From Arenicola marina (lineage: Eukaryota; Annelida; Polychaeta; Arenicolidae): a DNA stretch of 64,000 nt. Both the position numbers and the translations under genes were made by a program. The notes below the pieces were generated by a model that was given only the letters and a program-made list of their open reading frames with translations, was not told the origin of the DNA and made no database searches. Numbering within the stretch: the stretch's first letter is position 1; the number at the start of each line of letters is the position of its first letter. The DNA lies in NCBI GenBank assembly GCA_964019135.1, contig OZ025248.1, positions 40,293,670 through 40,357,669 of the forward strand, written 5' to 3'. Shown in pieces: positions 27,237 to 64,000 of this stretch.

Positions 27237-30200
27237 CATGTGTAGTAGAGGGAAGCGGTCGGGCCTGGTGTGTTTAGTAGAGGGAAGCGGTCCGGCCTGG
27301 TGTGTGTAGTAGAGGAAAGCGGTCGGGCCCAGTGCGTGTATTAGAGGGAAGCGGTCCGGCACAGTGTGTATAGTAGAAGGAAGCGGTCCGGCCTGGTGTG
27401 TGTAGTAGAGGGAAGCGGTCGGGCCCAGTGTGTGTAGTAGAGGGAAGCGGTCAGGCCCAGTGTGTGTAGTAGAGGGAAGCGGTCCGGCACAGTGTGGGTA
27501 GTAAAAGGAAGCGGTCGGGCCCAGTGTGTGTAGTAGAAGGAAGCGGTCGGGCCCAGTGTGTGTAGTAGAAGGACGCGGTCGGGACCGGTGTATTTAGTAG
27601 AGGGAAGCGGTCGGGCCCAGTGTGTGTAGTAGAAGGAAGCGGTCGGGCCCGGTGTGTGTAGTAGAAGGAAGCGGTCGGGCCCGGTGTGTGTAGTAGAGGG
27701 AAGCGGTCGGGCCCGGTTTGTGTAGTAGAAGGACGCGGTCGGGCCCGGTGTGTGTAGTAGAGGGAAGCGATCGGGTCCAGTGTGTGTAGTAGAAGGAAGC
27801 GGTCGGGCCCAGTGTATGTAGTAGAGGGAAGCGGTCGGGCCCAGTGTGTTTAGTAGAAGGACGCGGTCGGGCCCAGTGTGTGTAGTAGAAAGACGCGGTG
27901 GGGCCCGGTGTGTGTAGTAAAATGAAGCGGTCGGGCCCGGTGTGTGTAGTAGAGGGAAGCGATCGGGTGCAGTGTGTGTAGTAGAGGGAAGCGGTCGGGT
28001 CCGGTGTGTGTAGTAGAAGGAAGCGGTCGAGCCCAGTGTGTGTAGTGGAAGGAAGCGGTCGGGCCCAGTGTGTACAGTAGAAGGAAGCGGTCGAGCCCAG
28101 TGTGTGCAGTAGAAGGAAGCGGTCGAGCCCAGTGTGTACAGTAGAAGGAAGCGGTCAGGCCCAGTGTGTGCAGTAGAAGGAAGCGGTCGAGCCCGGTGTG
28201 TGTAGTAGAAGGAATCGGTCGAGCCCAGTGTGTACAGTAGAAGGAAGCGGTCGGGCCCAGGGTGTACAGTAGCAGTAAGCGGTCGGGCCCAGTGTGTGCA
28301 GTAGAAGTAAGCGGTCGGGCCCAGTGTGTGTAGTAGAGGGAAACGGTCGAGCCCAGTGTGTACAGTAGAAGGAAGCGGTCGGGCCCAGTGTGTGCAGTAG
28401 AAGGAAGCGGTCGAGCCCGGTGTGTGCAGTAGAAGGAAGCGGTCGGGCCCAGTGTGTGCAGTAGAAGGAAGCGGTCGGGCCCAGTGTGTACAGTAGAAGT
28501 AAGCGGTCGGGCCCAGTGTGTGCAGTAGAAGGAAGCGGTCGGGCCCAGTGTGTGCAGTAGAAGTAAGCGGTCGGGCCCAGTGTGTGCAGTAGAAGGAAGC
28601 GGTCTGGCCCAGTGTGTACAGTAGAAGTAAGCGGTCGGGCCCAGTGTGTGCAGTAGAAGGAAGCGGTCGGGCCCAGTGTGTGCAGTAGAAGTAAGCGGTC
28701 GGGCCCAGTGTGTGCAGTAGAAGTAAGCGGTCGGGCCCAGTGTGTGCAGAAGAAGGAGGCGGTCGGGCCCAGTGTGTACAGTAGAAGTAAGCGGTCGGGC
28801 CCAGTGTGTGCAGTAGAAGTAAGCGGTCGAGCCCAGTGTGTACGGTAGAAGGAAGCGGTCGGGCCCAGTGTGTACAGTAGAAGTAAGCGGTCGGGCCCAG
28901 TGTGTGCAGTAGAAGTAAGCGGTCGGGCCCAGTGTGTGCAGTAGAAGTAAGCGGTCGAGCCCAGTGTGTGCAGTAGAAGGAAGCGGTCGAGCCCAGTGTG
29001 TACAGTAGAAGGAAGCGGTCGGCCCCAGTGTGTACAGTAGAAGTAAGCGGTCGGGCCCAGTGTGTGCAGTAGAAGGAAGCGGTCGAGCCCAGTGTGTACA
29101 GTAGAAGTAAGCGGTCGGGCCCAGTGTATGTAGTAGAGGGAAGCGGTCGGGCCCAGTGTGTGTAGTAGAAGGAAGCGGTCGGGCCCAGTGTGTGTAGTAG
29201 AAAGACGCGGTGGGGCCCGGTGTGTGTAGTAAAATGAAGCGGTCGGGTGCAGTGTGTGTAGTAGAGGGAAGCGGTCGGGTCCGGTGTGTGTAGTAGAAGG
29301 AAGCGGTCGAGCCCAGTGTGTGTAGTAGAAGGAAGCGGTCCGGCACAGTGTGTACAGTAGAAGGAAGCGGTCGGGCCCAGTGTGTGTAGTGGAAGGATGC
29401 GGTCGAGCCCAGTGTGTGTAGTAGAAGGAAGCGGTCCGGCACAGTGTGTGTAGTAGAGGGAAGCGGTCGAGCCCAGTGTGTGTAGTAGAGGGAAGCGGTC
29501 GGGTCCGGTGTGTGTAGTAGAAGGAAGCGGTCGAGCCCAGTGTGTGTAGTAGAAGGAAGCGGTCCGGCACAGTGTGTGTAGTAGAGGGAAGCGGTCGAGC
29601 CCAGTGTGTGTAGTAGAAGGAAGCGGTCGAGCCCAGTGTGTGTAGTAGAAGGAAGCGGTCCGGCCCAGTGTGTACAGTAGAAGGAAGCGGTCGGGCCCAG
29701 TGTGTACAGTAGAAGGAAGCGGTCGGGCCCAGTGTGTGTAGTAGAAGGAAGCGGTCGGGCCCAGTGTGTGTAGTGGAAGGAAGCGGTCGGGCCCAATCTG
29801 TGTAGTAGAAGGAAGCGGTCGGGCCCAGTGTGTGTAGTAGAAGGAAGCGGTCGAGCCCAGTGTGTACAGTAGAAGTAAGCGGTCGAGCCCAGTGTGTACA
29901 GTAGAAGGAAGCGGTCGAGCCCAGTGTGTGCAGTAGAAGGAAGCGGTCGGACCCAGTGTGTGTAGTAGAGGGAAGCGGTCGGGCCCGGTGTGTGTAGTAG
30001 AGGGAAGCGGTCGGGCCCGGTTTGTGTAGTAGAAGGAAGCGGTCGAGCCCAGTGTGTACAGTAGAGGGAAGCGATCGGGTCCAGTGTGTGTAGTAGAAGG
30101 AAGCGGTCGGGCCCAGTGTGTGTAGTAGAAGGAAGCGGTCGAGCCCAGTGTGTGTAGTAGAAGGAAGCGGTCCGGCCCAGTGTGTACAGTAGAAGGAAGC

Positions 30201-30920
30201 GGTCGGGCCCAGTGTGTACAGTAGAAGGAAGCGGTCGGGCCCAGTGTGTGTAGTAGAAGGAAGCGGTCGGGCCCAGTGTGTGTAGTGGAAGGAAGCGGTC
30301 GGGCCCAATCTGTGCAGTAGAGGGAAGCGGTCGGGCCCAGTGTGTGTAGTAGAAGGAAGCGGTCGAGCCCAGTGTGTACAGTAGAAGTAAGCGGTCGAGC
30401 CCAGTGTGTACAGTAGAAGGAAGCGGTCGAGCCCAGTGTGTGCAGTAGAAGGAAGCGGTCGGACCCAGTGTGTGTAGTAGAGGGAAGCGGTCGGGCCCAG
30501 TGTGTGTAGTGGAAGGAAGCGGTCGGGCCCAATCTGTGCAGTAGAAGGAAGCGGTCGAGCCCAGTGTGTACAGTAGAAGGAAGCGGTCGGGCCCAGTGTG
30601 TGTAGTAGAGGGAAGCGGTCGAGCCCAGTGTGTACAGTAGAAGTAAGCGGTCGAGCCCAGTGTGTACAGTAGAAGGAAGCGGTCCGGCCCAGTGTGTGTA
30701 GCAGAGGGAAGCGGTCGAGCCCAGTGTGTACAGTAGAAGGAAGCGGTCGAGCCCAGTGTGTGCAGTAGAAGGAAGCGGTCGAGCCCAGTGTGTGCAGTAG
30801 AAGGAAGCGGTCGAGCCCAGTGTGTACAGTAAAAGGAAGCGGTCGGGCCCAGTGTGTACAGTAGAAGGAAACGGTCGAGCCCAGTGTGTACAGTAGAAGG
30901 AAGCGGTCGAGCCCAGTGTG
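27237..30920. repeat. 32-bp minisatellite, 115 copies, 3.7 kb
   Basis: The unit contains GTAGTAGAAGGAAGCGGTCG and GGCCCAGTGTGT. The marker GCGGTC lies at 27255 in the first copy and 30903 in the last, a distance of exactly 114 x 32 bases, so there is no net indel across 3.7 kb. Variants at a few positions (AGAAGG/AGAGGG/AGAAGT; GTGTGTAG/GTGTACAG/GTGTGCAG; CGGGCCC/CGAGCCC/CCGGCAC) mark subtypes. Blocks are duplicated at 512 bases (16 units; cggcccag at 29661 and 30173, aatctg at 29795 and 30307) and at 1312 bases (41 units; agacgcgg at 27891 and 29203). The minus strand is free of stops in all three frames for over 900 codons. No coding role is inferred. Confidence 0.97.
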
Positions 30921-41467: not shown

Positions 41468-42470
41468 TAAATACGTTCCCCATCCTCGCCCTGGTGCCAG
41501 GTTATACCTCTGGTTTACAGTGAATACGTTCCCCATCCTCGCCCTGGTGCCAGGTTATACCTCTGCTTTACAGTGAATACGTTCCCCATCCTCGCCCTGG
41601 TGCCAGGTTATACCTCTGGTTTACAGTGAATACGTTCCCCATCCTCGCCCTGGTGCCAGGTTATACCTCTGCTTTACAGTGAATACGTTCCCCATCCTCG
41701 CCCTGGTGCCAGGTTATACCTCTGCTTTACAGTGAATACGTTCCCCATCCTCGCCCTGGTGCCAGGTTATACCTCTGGTTTACAGTGAATACGTTCCCCA
41801 TCCTCGCCCTGGTGCCAGGTTATACCTCTGGTTTACAGTGAATACGTTTCCCATCCTCGCCCTGGTGCCAGGTTATACCTCTGGTTTACAGTGAATACGT
41901 TGCCCATCCTCGCCCTGGTGCCAGGTTATACCTCTGCTTTACAGTGAATACGTTGCCCATCCTCGCCCTGGTGCCAGGTTATACCTCTGGTTTACAGTGA
42001 ATACGTTCCCCATCCTCGCCCTGGTGCCAGGTTATACCTCTGGTTTACAGTGAATACGTTCCCCATCCTCGCCCTGGTGCCAGGTTATACCTCTGGTTTA
42101 CAGTGAATACGTTCCCCATCCTCGCCCTGGTGCCAGGTTATACCTCTGGTTTACAGTGAATACGTTCCCCATCCTCGCCCTGGTGCCAGGTTATACCTCT
42201 GGTTTACAGTGAATACGTTCCCCATCCTCGCCCTGGTGCCAGGTTATACCTCTGGTTTACAGTGAATACGTTCCCCATCCTCGCCCTGGTGCCAGGTTAT
42301 ACCTCTGGTTTACAGTGAATACGTTCCCCATCCTCGCCCTGGTGCCAGGTTATACCTATGGTTTACAGTGAATACGTTCCCCATCCTCGCCCTGGTGCCA
42401 GGTTATACCTCTGGTTTACAGTGAATACGTTCCCCATCCTCGCCCTGGTGCCAGGTTATACCTCTGGCTC
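41468..42470. repeat. 53-bp minisatellite, 19 near-identical copies
   Basis: ATACGTTCCCCATCCTCGCC begins at 41471 and its last copy at 42425, exactly 18 x 53 bases apart, so there are 19 copies without indels. The rest of the unit is CTGGTGCCAGGTTATACC and TCTGGTTTACAGTGA. Only a few positions vary (CTGGTTT/CTGCTTT, CGTTCCC/CGTTGCC/CGTTTCC, CCTCTG/CCTATG). Each unit has a small palindrome, CCTGGTGCCAGG. The array starts within unique sequence ending TTTGGAATAA and ends at CTCTGGCTCCAATGAG. Confidence 0.97.
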
Positions 42471-52656: not shown

Positions 52657-52781
52657 CCGTGCAATTCCAAGTATGCATACAGAACAGATACAAGTTAAAC
52701 AAAAAGTACCGGAAGTTGCTCCCGACCAATGCCGAGGAAGCAGAAAGTTCGGAGCACAAGACATTGGCCAACCAGGCCAAG
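52657..52781 (+). CDS. ITPR-like: Inositol trisphosphate receptor-like protein, exon 3
   Basis: Bounded by ttgcag and gtcagt. With the preceding G it reads AVQFQVCIQNRYKLNKKYRK then LLPTNAEEAESSEHKTLANQ, then Ala-Lys, ending on a complete codon. FQVCIQNRY aligns with the invariant-looking FKLCPMNRY of the receptor suppressor domain, and the basic KLNKKYRK segment aligns with SAQKQFWKAA. The following Glu/Ser/Asn-rich stretch corresponds to the variable loop before the helix of the helix-turn-helix arm. The identity of this exon is one of the two clearest in the gene. The 125-base length fits phase 2-in, 0-out. Confidence 0.85.
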
Positions 52782-53285: not shown

Positions 53286-53372
53286 TTGGCTGCGGATGCG
53301 GAAAATGAGGACAACATCGCGGAACAGCGACGGCAGCATGGAAAGCGGGTCCGGTATGGCGAGATTATACAG
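53286..53372 (+). CDS. ITPR-like: Inositol trisphosphate receptor-like protein, exon 4
   Basis: Begins after ttttcag and, using the first donor, ends at ATACAG before gtgggt. It encodes 29 residues: LAADAENEDNIAEQRRQ followed by HGKRVRYGEIIQ. The charged helix aligns with HHAADLEKKQNETENRK of vertebrate receptors, and RVRYGEIIQ aligns with TVIQYGNVIQ, the first strand of the first MIR repeat. The match with exon 5 continues across the junction. Both ends are phase 0. The exon's last 27 bases plus the donor are the founding unit of the adjoining 35-bp array, so 80 further donors lie downstream. The true exon end cannot be decided from sequence alone; donors 3, 6 or 9 units downstream would also keep frame. 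Confidence 0.86.
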
Positions 53373-56205
53373 GTGGGTGGCGGGTCCGGTATGGCGAGAT
53401 CATACAGGTGGGTGGCGGGTCCGGTATGGCGAGATCATACATGTGGGTGGCGGGTCCAATATGGCGAGATTATACAGGTGGGTGGCGGGTCCGGTATGGC
53501 GAGATTATACAGGTGGGTGGCGGGTCCGGTATGGCGAGATTATACAGGTGGGTGGCGGGTCCGGTATGGCGAGATTATACAGGTGAGTGGCGGGTCCGGT
53601 ATGGCGAGATTATACAGGTGGGTGGCGGGTCCGGTATGGCGAGATTATACAGGTGGGTGGCGGGTTCGGTATGGCGAGATTATACAGGTGGGTGGCGGGT
53701 CCGGTATGGCGAGATTATACAGGTGAGTGGCGGGTCCGGTATGGCAAGATTATACAGGTTGGTGGCGGGTCCGGTATGGCGAGATTATACAGGTGAGTGG
53801 CGGGTCCGGTATGGCGAGATTATACAGGTGGGTGGCGGGTCCGGTATGGCGAGATTATACAGGTGAGTGGCGGGTCCGGTATGGCGAAATTATACAGGTG
53901 GGTGGCGGCTCCGGTATGGCGAGATTATACAGGTTGGTGGCGGGTCCGGTATGGCGAGATTATACAGGTGAGTGGCGGGTCCGGTATGGCGAGATTATAC
54001 AGGTGAGTGGCGGGTCTAGTATGGCGAGATTATACAGGTGGGTGGCGGGTCCGGTATAGCGCGATTATACGGGTTGGTGGCGGGTCCGGTATGGCGAGAT
54101 TATACAGGTGGGTGGCGGGTCCGGTATGGCGAGATTATACAGGTGAGTGGCGGGTCCGGTATGGCGAGATTATACGGGTGGGTGGCGGGTCCGGTATGGC
54201 GAGATTACACAGGTGGGTGGCGGGTCCAGTATGGCGAGATCATACAGGTGGGTGGCGGGTCCGGTATGGCGAGATTATACAGGTGGGTGGCGGGTCCGGT
54301 ATAGCGAGATTATACGGGTTGGTGGCGGGTCCGGTATGGCGAGATTACACAGGTGGGTGGCGGGTCCGGTATGGCGAGATCATACAGGTGGGTGGCGGGT
54401 CCGGTATGGCGAGATTATACAGGTGGGTGGCGGGTCCGGTATAGCGAGATTATACAGGTGGGTGGCGGGTCCGGTATGGCGAGATTATACAGGTGGGTGG
54501 CGGGTCCGGTATGGCGAGATTATACAGGTGGGTGGCGGGTCCGGTATGGCGAGATCATACAGGTGGGTGGCGGGTCCGGTATGGCGAGGTTATACAGGTG
54601 GGTGGCGGGTCCGGTATGGCGAGATTACACAGGTGAGTGGCGGGTCCGGTATGGCGAGATTATACAGGTGGGTGGCGGGTCCGGTATAGCGAGATTATAC
54701 AGGTGGGTGGCGGGTCCGGTATGGCGAGATTATACAGGTGGGTGGCAGGTCCGGTATGGCGAGATCATACAGGTGGGTGGCTGGTCCGGTATGGCGAGGT
54801 TATACAGGTGGGTGGCGGGTCCGGTATGGCGAGATTACACAGGTGAGTGGCGGGTCCGGTATGGCGAGATTATACAGGTGGGTGGCGGGTCCGGTATGGC
54901 GAGATTATACAGGTGGGTGGCGGGTCCGGTATAGCGAGATTACACAGGTGGGTGGCGGGTCCGGTATGGCGAGATTATACGGGTTGGTGGCGGGTCCGGT
55001 ATGGCGAGATCATACAGGTGGGTGGCGGGTCCGGTATGGCGAGATTATACAGGTGGGTGGCGGGTCCGGTATAGCGAGATTATACAGGTGGGTGGCGGGT
55101 CCGGTATGGCGAGATTATACAGGTGGGTGGCGGGTCCGGTATGGCGAGATTACACAGGTGGGTGGCGGGTCCGGTATGGCGAGATCATACAGGTGGGTGG
55201 CGGGTCCGGTATGGCGAGATTATACAGGTGGGTGGCGGGTCCGGTATAGCGAGATTATACAGGTGGGTGGCGGGTCCGGTATGGCGAGATTATACAGGTG
55301 GGTGGCGGGTCCGGTATGGCGAGATCATACAGGTGGGTGGCGGGTCCGGTATGGCGAGGTTATACAGGTGGGTGGCGGGTCCGGTATGGCGAGATTACAC
55401 AGGTGAGTGGCGGGTCCGGTATGGCGAGATTATACAGGTGGGTGGCGGGTCCGGTATGGCGAGATTATACAGGTGGGTGGCGGGTCCGGTATAGCGAGAT
55501 TACACAGGTGGGTGGCGGGTCCGGTATGGCGAGATTATACAGGTGGGTGGCGGGTCCGGTATGGCGAGATTACACAGGTGGGTGGCGGGTCCGGTATGGC
55601 GAGATCATACAGGTGGGTGGCGGGTCCGGTATGGCGAGGTTATACAGGTGGGTGGCGGGTCCGGTATGGCGAGATTACACAGGTGAGTGGCGGGTCCGGT
55701 ATGGCGAGATTATACAGGTGGGTGGCGGGTCCGGTATGGCGAGATTATACAGGTGGGTGGCGGGTCCGGTATAGCGAGATTACACAGGTGGGTGGCGGGT
55801 CCGGTATGGCGAGATTATACAGGTGGGTGGCGGGCCCGGTATGGCGAGATTATACAGGTGGGTGGCGGGTCCGGTATGGCGAGATCATACAGGTGGGTGG
55901 CGGGTCCGGTATGGCGAGGTTATACAGGTGGGTGGCGGGTCCGGTATGGCGAGATTACACAGGTGGGTGGCGGGTCCCCTATAGCGAGATTATACAGGTG
56001 GGTGGCGGGTCCGGTATGGCGAGGTTATACAGGTGGGTGGCGGGTCCGGTATGGCGAGATTACACAGGTGGGTGGCGGGTCCGGTATGGCGAGATCATAC
56101 AGGTGGGTGGCGGGTCCGGTATGGCGAGGTTATACAGGTGGGTGGCGGGTCCGGTATGGCGAGGTTATACAGGTGGGTGGCGGGTCCGGTATCGCGAGAT
56201 TATAG
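53373..56205 (+). repeat. 35-bp minisatellite made of exon 4's end and its 5' splice site, 81 donor copies
   Basis: Each unit is an 8-base intron start (GTGGGTGG or GTGAGTGG) followed by CGGGTCCGGTATGGCGAG and ATTATACAG, the last 27 bases of exon 4. Donors recur at 53373 + 35n; the last is at 56173, exactly 80 units on, so there are no indels in 2.8 kb. The final unit is mutated (ATCGCG, TATAG) and runs into unique sequence. Substitutions include GTGAGT, GTTGGT, TATAGCG, GAGATCATAC, GAGGTTATAC and GATTACAC forms. GCGAGGTTATAC variants at 55351, 55631 and 55911 are 280 bases (8 units) apart, which shows block amplification in the right half. The array lies within intron 4; its frames repeat a Gly/Arg/Trp-rich 35-residue peptide. 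Confidence 0.96.
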
Positions 56206-57144
56206 ATAAGGTTGAGGAGGGGGAAGCCAATAACGTCGCAAATGTCTCACCACAACATTTCATCCGATTAGATTCCGGTTAGGTTGAACCGTAGGTAATT
56301 AAACACAGTCAATTATATTAGGAATTATAATATAATGCGTTGCAACATTTCATTAAAATACATTGGTCCGGTATGTGCACAATTGTGGGCCGAAGAAACT
56401 GCTCCAGTTCCCATTGATTGATTACCTGTTCTAAGCGGACTAGACGCTGATCACCCCTCAACACGCGCTATCTAAACATGTTATCATGGAGACGTTTGAG
56501 TGGGAAGGACTAATCAACGTGTATTATGGCCACAGAGATATCCAAACATAACACATGTTATGCCCAGTTTCCTTGTAGCGCGTTCACCGTTTCGGTGGCA
56601 GTGTCGAATGTTTTAAACAAACATCTTGCCAAAGCAGCTCGTGGAAGGAGCAATCTTAGAGCTTTCCCTGGAATGTGCGTCCGTCGTGCATTTTTGACAG
56701 TTCAGTAGGTGGTGTTTTGCCCCCTCGGAATTCATCAAAACATACTAGAACTGAGCAAAAATTATGGGTTGAAGTCCCTGAACGATAGACCAATGCATAA
56801 ACAGTTAACTAGAAAACAACACAAGGGACAAAACGTTGCAGAACGAAGATAATAATACATCGTATAGAGCAGAACAGTAAACAGTGGATGCAGTAGCTCC
56901 TCGAATAGGGCAGATAATGTGACGTATGCAACGAATATTAATTATTGGATTAGCTACGAATTGAATATTGCACTGAATATGACCATGAATAAACAGTTAG
57001 TATAACTTGAATATTGCACAGTATAGAACAATGAATAAGCAATTAATATAACTTGTATATTGTAATGAATGGCATATAGAATATAGACCACCATGTTTCG
57101 TCAGTTTATCAATGATCCAAGCCATCAGTTACTTTGTCTTGCAG
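56206..57144 (+). other. Remainder of intron 4
   Basis: Unique A/T-rich sequence between the array and exon 5, ending in a pyrimidine-rich acceptor (tttgtcttgcag). No exon, repeat family or nested gene is seen. Confidence 0.75.
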
Positions 57145-63284: not shown

Positions 63285-64000
63285 AACATAGTTTTTTTAC
63301 TTTGAGGATGATGGTAGGGGTGGAGGTGTTGGGGGGTGGGGGGGTCGATGGGGTGGTGGGGCGGCACAAATTGGTCCACCAATTATTACTGTAAGCAGGG
63401 GAGGGGGAGGGGAGGGGGGGGGCGTACACATATATTCGTGGCCCCCTCGATAGATCTAACATGCAATCCACGTTAACTTAACGTTGCCTGCCGTTCATTG
63501 CTTGTGTCACCGACTTCTCCGCAGCATCACATCTGACTGATGAATCCACGGTGAAACAGGGGTTTTGCGACACGCCGACCCGACTGCTATTGCTAACATT
63601 TGCTAACAAACCCCGTGTTTTCCGCGCTAGCATGCCCCAGTTATAGTGTTTACATTGCACAAGAAAGTAGTATTGTTGAAGCGAATGTTCTAGCTTACAA
63701 GTAGCATACAAAAGGAATACAAAAAAGCCACGTGGTTTTACATCGAGGTTTTCCTTGCTCACCACGGGCTTGCGCTCAATGAAAATGGACTGCACCATGA
63801 CTGACAGAACGAACAGCATTAACGCTCACACTGAAGTCTTACCTCTGCATCACAGAACCATTTCGAAGTAGGTTCGTTACCGATGCGCCCAGCATAAACA
63901 GGACGTAACTCTGTTTTGCTACTTAGTTGAATGCTGATTCCGTCGTTTTATGCGATGAAAGCCATAGCCTGTGATTGGAACACGTTATAATAAGCATCCC

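Follow-up and report, generated by a model that had tools for sequence, protein, structure and literature searches.

The 3' end of an 87-nt exon, together with the 5' splice site that follows it, forms the repeat unit of a minisatellite in which 81 full copies of 35 bp stand in tandem, each with a potential donor of its own. We consider it probable that this donor ladder is a minisatellite of the "mirage" type, that is, an ordinary tandem-repeat birth spanning an exon-intron boundary, which is passive, has left the first donor intact and would have that donor used in splicing. The host is, on its predicted exons, an IP3-receptor-type (calcium-channel) gene, and comparable predicted donor ladders stand behind exons of six or more genes that are unrelated to it elsewhere in this genome.

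The array and its host gene

The window, by which we mean the whole 64,000-nucleotide stretch of DNA analysed here, corresponds to C1:40293670-40357669 within an 867-Mb assembly. The minisatellite occupies 53345-56204 on the plus strand as 81 full 35-bp units and a 25-bp partial copy, without indels, and TRF returns the same interval as a tandem array of minisatellite-size units (period 35, 81.7 copies, 94% matches, 0% indels). Unit 0 (53345-53379, plus strand) is identical to the array consensus, and in-register mismatches over units n = 0-80 amount to 79 of 2,835 unit bases. By sequence, the unit spans the exon-intron boundary, with 28 bases from the end of the exon and 7 from the start of the intron. 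The first-pass annotation had described an indel-free 35-bp array with 81 donors at 53373 + 35n, which direct reading and TRF bear out; its unit length holds, and its division into 27 exonic and 8 intronic bases gives way to the 28 + 7 of the maximal match. When the 867-Mb assembly was searched for exact copies of the 35-bp unit, 25 places were among the matches listed, every one of them inside the array. The decayed terminal copy and the exit from the array (ATTATAGATAAGGTTGAGG), as read from the letters, lie at 56180-56240 on the plus strand.

The laddered exon (exon 4 in the numbering of the first-pass annotation, LAADAENEDNIAEQRRQHGKRVRYGEIIQ; 53286-53372, plus strand) has 29 codons and ends with CAG in phase 0; its peptide ends ...RVRYGEIIQ and the exon end reads CAG|GTGGGTG. 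Upstream of it lies exon 3 (...RYKLNKKYRKLLPTNAEEAESSEHKTLANQAK; 52657-52781, plus strand), with a donor, AAG|GTCAGT, that is weaker for U1 (-6.2 kcal/mol). Joined, exons 3 and 4 match IP3 receptors, with ITPR3 as the best match (E 1.9e-5) and an alignment that extends to the conserved YGxVIQ; of the matches listed, 18 of 23 are IP3 receptors and the other 5 are weak haemerythrin matches. This agrees with the earlier attribution of the exon to a calcium-channel gene. The exon numbers are provisional: a single regex search of the upstream DNA for exons that would encode the IP3R N-terminus gave nothing convincing.

Intron 4 begins at 53373 and continues on the plus strand to position 64000 and beyond the window. 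The next exon (exon 5, LRFRHMTTRQYLCITADRRVTLTPDAKDPRTVFRLHPVIK (LRFRHMTTRQYL...), plus strand) was located by an acceptor-anchored scan at ext 84709, 20.7 kb past the window end, where "ext" coordinates continue the window numbering (C1 = 40293669 + ext); intron 4 would therefore be about 31 kb long, if no exon has been missed between. Searches by motif for exon 5, both within the window and past its end, gave nothing convincing. The exon at ext 84709 carries a hint of a MIR domain, at E 0.0076 alone and 0.00079 when joined to exons 3-4, both below the Pfam cut-off. Farther along, an ORF at ext 90486 has a weak RYDR_ITPR match (E 0.003, below the Pfam cut-off), and a RIH_assoc exon at ext 115251 scores above the cut-off (E 1.5e-12).

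A canonical IP3R paralogue is found on the same chromosome as the window gene (C1:27.87-27.90 Mb). Its counterpart exon also has 29 codons and ends at the identical residue and in the identical phase, and its following exon begins LLHIKSNKYLTV. Since residue and phase of the exon end are shared, the CAG|GT of unit 0 is the ancestral exon end, and the earlier proposal that an exon boundary had been captured into a tandem repeat is upheld. No tandem repeat follows the donor of the 29-codon exon in the canonical paralogue. As separate observations, a PF08709 search returned a further match at C5:34061554 (E 5.1e-13), with the window gene itself not among the matches listed, and a YGxVIQ+GT pattern search did not return the canonical exon and gave two matches elsewhere.

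The array has internal structure. Its distal part, units 34-80 (54535-56179, plus strand), repeats at a higher order too, roughly every 8/16 units, with variants held in common at lag 8 in 10/35 cases and at lag 16 in 11/28; in units 0-33 the corresponding figure at lag 8 is 3/28, and a weaker signal appears at lag 4 (9/33). This sharing at lags of 8/16 and 4 suggests that the array grew by block copying, most recently in its distal part, and the block structure, as seen in one assembly, is compatible with copy-number instability between alleles. That a repeat at a normal exon end was merely collapsed or expanded in assembly is highly improbable: the array is known from one assembly, but its units bear distinct variants in a block structure, the contig bearing it is 77 Mb long, and arrays of other sequences stand at other exon ends.

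Donor choice along the ladder

The first donor (CAG|GTGGGT, its GTGGGT at 53373-53378, plus strand) forms a U1 duplex of -11.1 kcal/mol. Splice signals are carried by all of the copies, in that the GT is kept in 81/81 units, at 53373+35n for n = 0-80. The donor 9-mers are CAGGTGGGT in 63 units and CAGGTGAGT in 11, followed by the rarer CGGGTTGGT (3), CAGGTTGGT (2), CATGTGGGT (1) and CGGGTGGGT (1). CAG|GTGGGT or CAG|GTGAGT is thus present in 74/81 units, much as the first-pass annotation had stated in writing of nearly every unit, and scoring of all 81 donors as U1 pairing places 75 of them within 1 kcal/mol of the first. Strength therefore gives the first donor no advantage, which counts against a passive reading.

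Two further ladders on the gene's strand lie past the window. One, of 30 bp, starts at ext 97703 after ...DENKDMTACMIGRNMLIEQ|GTGAGT (...GRNMLIEQ|), and another, of 38 bp, at ext 128152 after ...LHDTKQSDYTALELYVHKL|GTGAGT (...DYTALELYVHKL|); both apparently follow predicted exon ends of the window's gene. The exon before the 38-bp ladder matches the C-terminal region of IP3/ryanodine receptors, with a best E of 0.0046 (ITPR3). For the exon that precedes the 30-bp ladder neither an IP3R match nor any other family match was found; it apparently belongs to the same gene, to judge from its position between IP3R-like exons.

One could regard such a ladder as an active splicing device, which would give graded exon length or tune output through frame-shifted, decayed isoforms. 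The full retention of GT, and the 75 donors that pair with U1 about like the first, speak in its favour, as does human IFI6/6-16, where, according to the available portion of PMC4526556, two downstream units of a minisatellite serve as donors and give three mRNAs. The 30-bp ladder is in frame, with n = 0-22 frame-keeping and stop-free among the 24 units tested (GT in 21/24), and its units would add VSDRNMLIEQ-like repeats. Against the device stands the reading frame in the other two ladders. The 35-bp unit is not a multiple of three, so that every donor step changes the frame: donors n = 1 and n = 2 are frame-shifted, and a frame-keeping, stop-free exon results from n = 0, 3, 6 and 9 only among the 81 donors. 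With so few productive donors the first must serve if the gene works. In the 38-bp ladder n = 0 is the sole productive donor among 54. Nor do the donor bases of the 35-bp ladder show extra constraint, with 17 of the 35 unit positions invariant; the 9 donor positions hold 4 variant states and the remaining 26 positions hold 17. A test for selection on the copies over the 35-bp unit gave no sign of it: both bases of the GT would be invariant by chance with P 0.23. The canonical paralogue, moreover, lacks a ladder at its counterpart exon. On balance we think an active device quite unlikely.

The same results bear on two uses that the first-pass annotation had suggested. Graded exon length fits poorly, being possible solely via the steps to n = 3, 6 and 9, each adding 35 residues. 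A buffer against donor mutation fits poorly as well, as loss of the first donor would put n = 1 in its place, which is a frameshift. We also tried the array as a repeat protein read on in the exon frame, and rejected this reading on finding a stop at the unit 10 donor, where the ORF ends at 53726.

For the mirage-type, passive minisatellite that we favour, a sequence of events can be proposed. A short tandem duplication would have taken in 28 bases at the end of the exon and 7 at the start of the intron; the duplicated segment reached past donor +6, so the original donor consensus would have stayed complete and the change would have been near neutral. Growth would have followed by block copying, partly shown by the variant sharing described above (about 8 units distally, with a weaker 4 proximally), while the terminal copy decayed. 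Through exon definition the spliceosome would presumably take the first donor beside the 87-nt exon, and the other 80 donors would be spliced out as intron or would yield rare, mostly frame-shifted products. The last element, the occurrence of ladders at exon ends of unrelated genes and at two predicted ends apparently in the same gene, is documented here and in the following section.

Recurrence of ladders and the question of donor targeting

A survey of 240.8 kb of contiguous DNA for periods of 10-200 bp found local tandem repeats over 55,424 of 240,800 bp (about 23%), in 71 arrays of at least 3 copies. Ten or more copies are present in 32 of the 71, with units of 15-87 bp, and at least three of these 32, the window's included, begin at a predicted exon end; the region's other minisatellites thus resemble the window's array in having 15-87 bp units in tens of copies. 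Of the 71 arrays, 15 hold a donor-like string above 6.5 bits on the strand of the gene and 5 hold one on the opposite strand (8 and 3, respectively, above 8 bits), as scored with human donor frequencies; the 30-bp and 38-bp ladders are among them. For large arrays lying over a donor by chance, 0.13-0.19 would be expected among the 9 others versus 2 seen (P 0.008-0.016), an estimate that assumes 40-60 donors and counts the two ladders not used for ascertainment. This is more than random placement would give and weighs against the passive reading.

Elsewhere in the genome, the array starts sampled were those of donor-motif arrays among the matches listed, namely 7 of CAGGTRRGT (besides the window's) and 16 of AAGGTAAGT. 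Of these 23 starts 20 were reached (CAGGTRRGT 5/7, AAGGTAAGT 15/16), the CAGGTRRGT starts at C1:1.095 Mb and C1:1.564 Mb being the ones in that set that were not. A family-supported exon adjoins the array at 9/20 starts, 6 of them above the Pfam cut-off; an unsupported ORF does so at 3/20, and 8/20 are without a supported exon. The CAGGTRRGT arrays adjoin exons of transportin-3/importin-13 (Pfam E 6.8e-19), ALDH (PF00171, E 7.1e-8) and a lustrin-type Cys-rich protein (E 2.5e-5, just below the cut-off), together with one start at an ORF without a family match and one at a G-rich array without a supported exon. The AAGGTAAGT arrays adjoin UDPGP (E 4.3e-20), TTL (E 6.2e-15), 7tm_1 (E 6.4e-14) and RING (E 1.1e-10) exons, a BCKDH E2 exon (PDB E 8.5e-6; Pfam 0.0028, below the cut-off) and a collagen exon (E 0.0023, below the cut-off), with 2 further starts at ORFs without support and 7 at arrays without a supported exon. 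This sample shows recurrence and not a rate, the flanks of donor-motif arrays alone having been read.

Some individual assignments changed or were dropped. The transportin-3/importin-13 array start was at one stage taken as non-coding, which its Pfam match overturned, and Rh-glycoprotein as a candidate for the unmatched CAGGTRRGT-array ORF was abandoned, with no PDB match and no Pfam match. One of the two unsupported AAGGTAAGT-array ORFs has no Pfam or PDB match, and the ORFs at the starts of the 8 arrays without a supported exon have no Pfam match; Pfam may miss real exons, and UTR exons are invisible to it.

Might donors attract such arrays? Transcribed 5' splice sites, through G-rich or R-loop-forming DNA or U1-bound nascent RNA, could place breakpoints just after the donor. 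The three ladders within one stretch are consistent with such donor-targeted birth, as is the position of the unit ends: of 15 ladders at exon ends, 6 have units that reach 5-8 nt past the exon-intron junction, versus 1.9 expected if uniform (P 0.007, post hoc). Four of the 15, however, follow an exon that itself lacks a supporting family match, and one of these four is among the 6 clustered; in one of the 15 the exonic + intronic split depends on scoring (22+8 or 29+1).

Motif counts over the genome, which are copy-weighted lower bounds and were set against the reversed word as control, point both ways. AAGGTAAGT triples number at least 560 versus at least 225 for the reversed control, and the two words have similar numbers of single sites (at least 8,453 and at least 8,881), which corresponds on these lower-bound counts to 6.6% versus 2.5% triples per single site; this excess suggests that seeding may not be purely passive. 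Counted per array on C1-C5, by eye and among the matches listed, the excess is small (15 vs 8 reversed). CAGGTRRGT triples at 24-54 bp spacing number at least 10,761 versus at least 5,518 for the reversed word, and single sites at least 56,004 versus at least 30,356, so that triples per single site come, on lower-bound counts, to 19.2% versus 18.2%, almost no excess. At exactly 35 bp spacing the counts are at least 458 versus at least 63, with the window's own array counted in. The CAGGTGAGT triples at C1:1.564 Mb are absent among the matches listed.

We read this as capture of donors at about the background rate, or perhaps up to twofold above it: donors are neither protected from nor clearly targeted by tandem amplification. 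Donor-targeted birth seems to us unlikely as an explanation of the array. A bolder speculation, and still a rather doubtful one, is that minisatellites arise again and again at the 5' splice sites of unrelated genes in this genome, with a breakpoint at +5 to +8 tied to transcription or splicing and not to random slippage, and that some ladders with units divisible by three, such as the 30-bp one, might then act as graded-length exons.

Precedents and significance

The first-pass annotation knew of no described case on this scale. Precedents for the kind have been published, in the mirages of amphioxus and the IFI6 minisatellite; a case with as many as 81 copies was not found. Turri et al. in 1995 reportedly gave the original account of the IFI6/6-16 minisatellite with multiple splice donors. 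Like the array described here, that minisatellite offers several donors at an exon end; it differs, as far as the available portion of its description goes, in having downstream donors used in mRNA, whereas the unit here is 35 bp, out of frame and known from sequence alone.

The closest parallel is provided by the amphioxus "mirages", which the accessible sections of PMC3087553 describe as tandem repeats across exon-intron boundaries in the globins BflGb6 and BflGb9 and in Adh3. According to the same sections, mirages apparently do not hinder splicing, their edge units escape homogenisation, and intron gain from them has been proposed. PMC3902484 adds TnC and PGBD5 mirages and states that the Adh and TnC mirages yield no aberrant mRNAs. 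On these partial accounts, the amphioxus repeats and the present array have in common a minisatellite-like unit lying over an exon-intron boundary in many copies with splice signals, and the decayed last copy here resembles the edge units there. The difference is one of extent: BflGb6 has 6 and 3 units and Adh3 units of 10-72 bp in the sections concerned, while here there are 81 units, and several genes are involved. A search for the GFP family (PF01353), of which lancelets possess several genes, gave no match in the present genome, nor any in the control genomes, and so lends no support to a lancelet as host.

Intron gain via AGGT tandem duplication, as set out in the accessible text of PMC4974935 (the Rogers model; ATP2A1; in fission yeast, a 24-bp segment in multiple tandem copies), likewise involves tandem copies of an AG|GT segment. 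Unlike that scenario, so far as this text presents it, the array here captured an existing donor and intron. Intronic VNTRs that alter splicing are described for ABCA7, MIR137 and TERT in the excerpts available, which, like the donor use in IFI6, counts against a passive array, and the portion of the literature on earthworm metallothionein intron repeats that was available describes no boundary repeats. No report of a ladder this long, or of a genome-wide class of donor ladders, was found among the matches listed from the open-licence literature. What is possibly new, therefore, is the scale, the recurrence in one genome, and the clustering of unit boundaries just after the donor (6/15, post hoc).

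A row of near-identical donors beside one exon represents a natural experiment in which the strength of the 5' splice site is nearly constant and its position varies, and with three ladders, whose units are in and out of frame, one can ask if position alone fixes donor choice. The ladders give duplication models of intron gain a wealth of examples to work with, and they caution gene predictors that pick donors on score alone. Their recurrence indicates that, in this repeat-rich genome, exon ends are unprotected from tandem amplification.

Ladders and repeats past the window

A second donor ladder, built like the window's own array from tandem units that each join an exon end to a 5' splice donor, lies 33.7 kb beyond the window end at ext 97703-98532 (window coordinates continued past that end; C1:40391372-40392201 on the same contig, OZ025248.1). 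Its 30-bp units are in frame, and read-through is predicted from the sequence to add VSDRNMLIEQ-like repeats; if graded exon length is real anywhere, this ladder would be the best candidate. A third ladder, 38 bp x 54 (ext 128152-130178; C1:40421821-40423847), follows an exon matching the IP3R/RyR C-terminal region, and there the frame is kept by the first donor only.

The predicted acceptor of exon 5, the next exon found for the window gene (ext 84708/84709), is without a clear polypyrimidine tract. A degenerate tandem repeat of ~40 bp (GCCGCTATGTTGCTAATTGTGTCGC...) lies in ext 84510-84708, immediately upstream of the exon, and reaches nearly to this acceptor.

Other minisatellites of the window

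The minisatellite at 27239-30920, in which a 32-bp unit is repeated 115 times, is longer than any other array in the window. Another (41470-42467), a 53-bp unit x 18.8 with 98% matches, looks young.

Arrays and matches elsewhere in the genome

At C1:605781-612276 a 39-bp ladder after an ALDH-type exon spans ~6.5 kb and exceeds the window's array in length. On the - strand, a 53-bp donor-bearing array (C1:1563974-1569250) is at least 5 kb long, a lower bound, as its start lies beyond the sequence read. A further stretch, C5:34061554-34061691, matches the IP3R N-terminal family (E 5.1e-13) and is perhaps part of a third IP3R-type gene.

Unit boundaries

By post hoc count, the unit boundary falls 5-8 bases inside the intron in 6 of 15 exon-end ladders, as if a duplication had ended directly past the donor.
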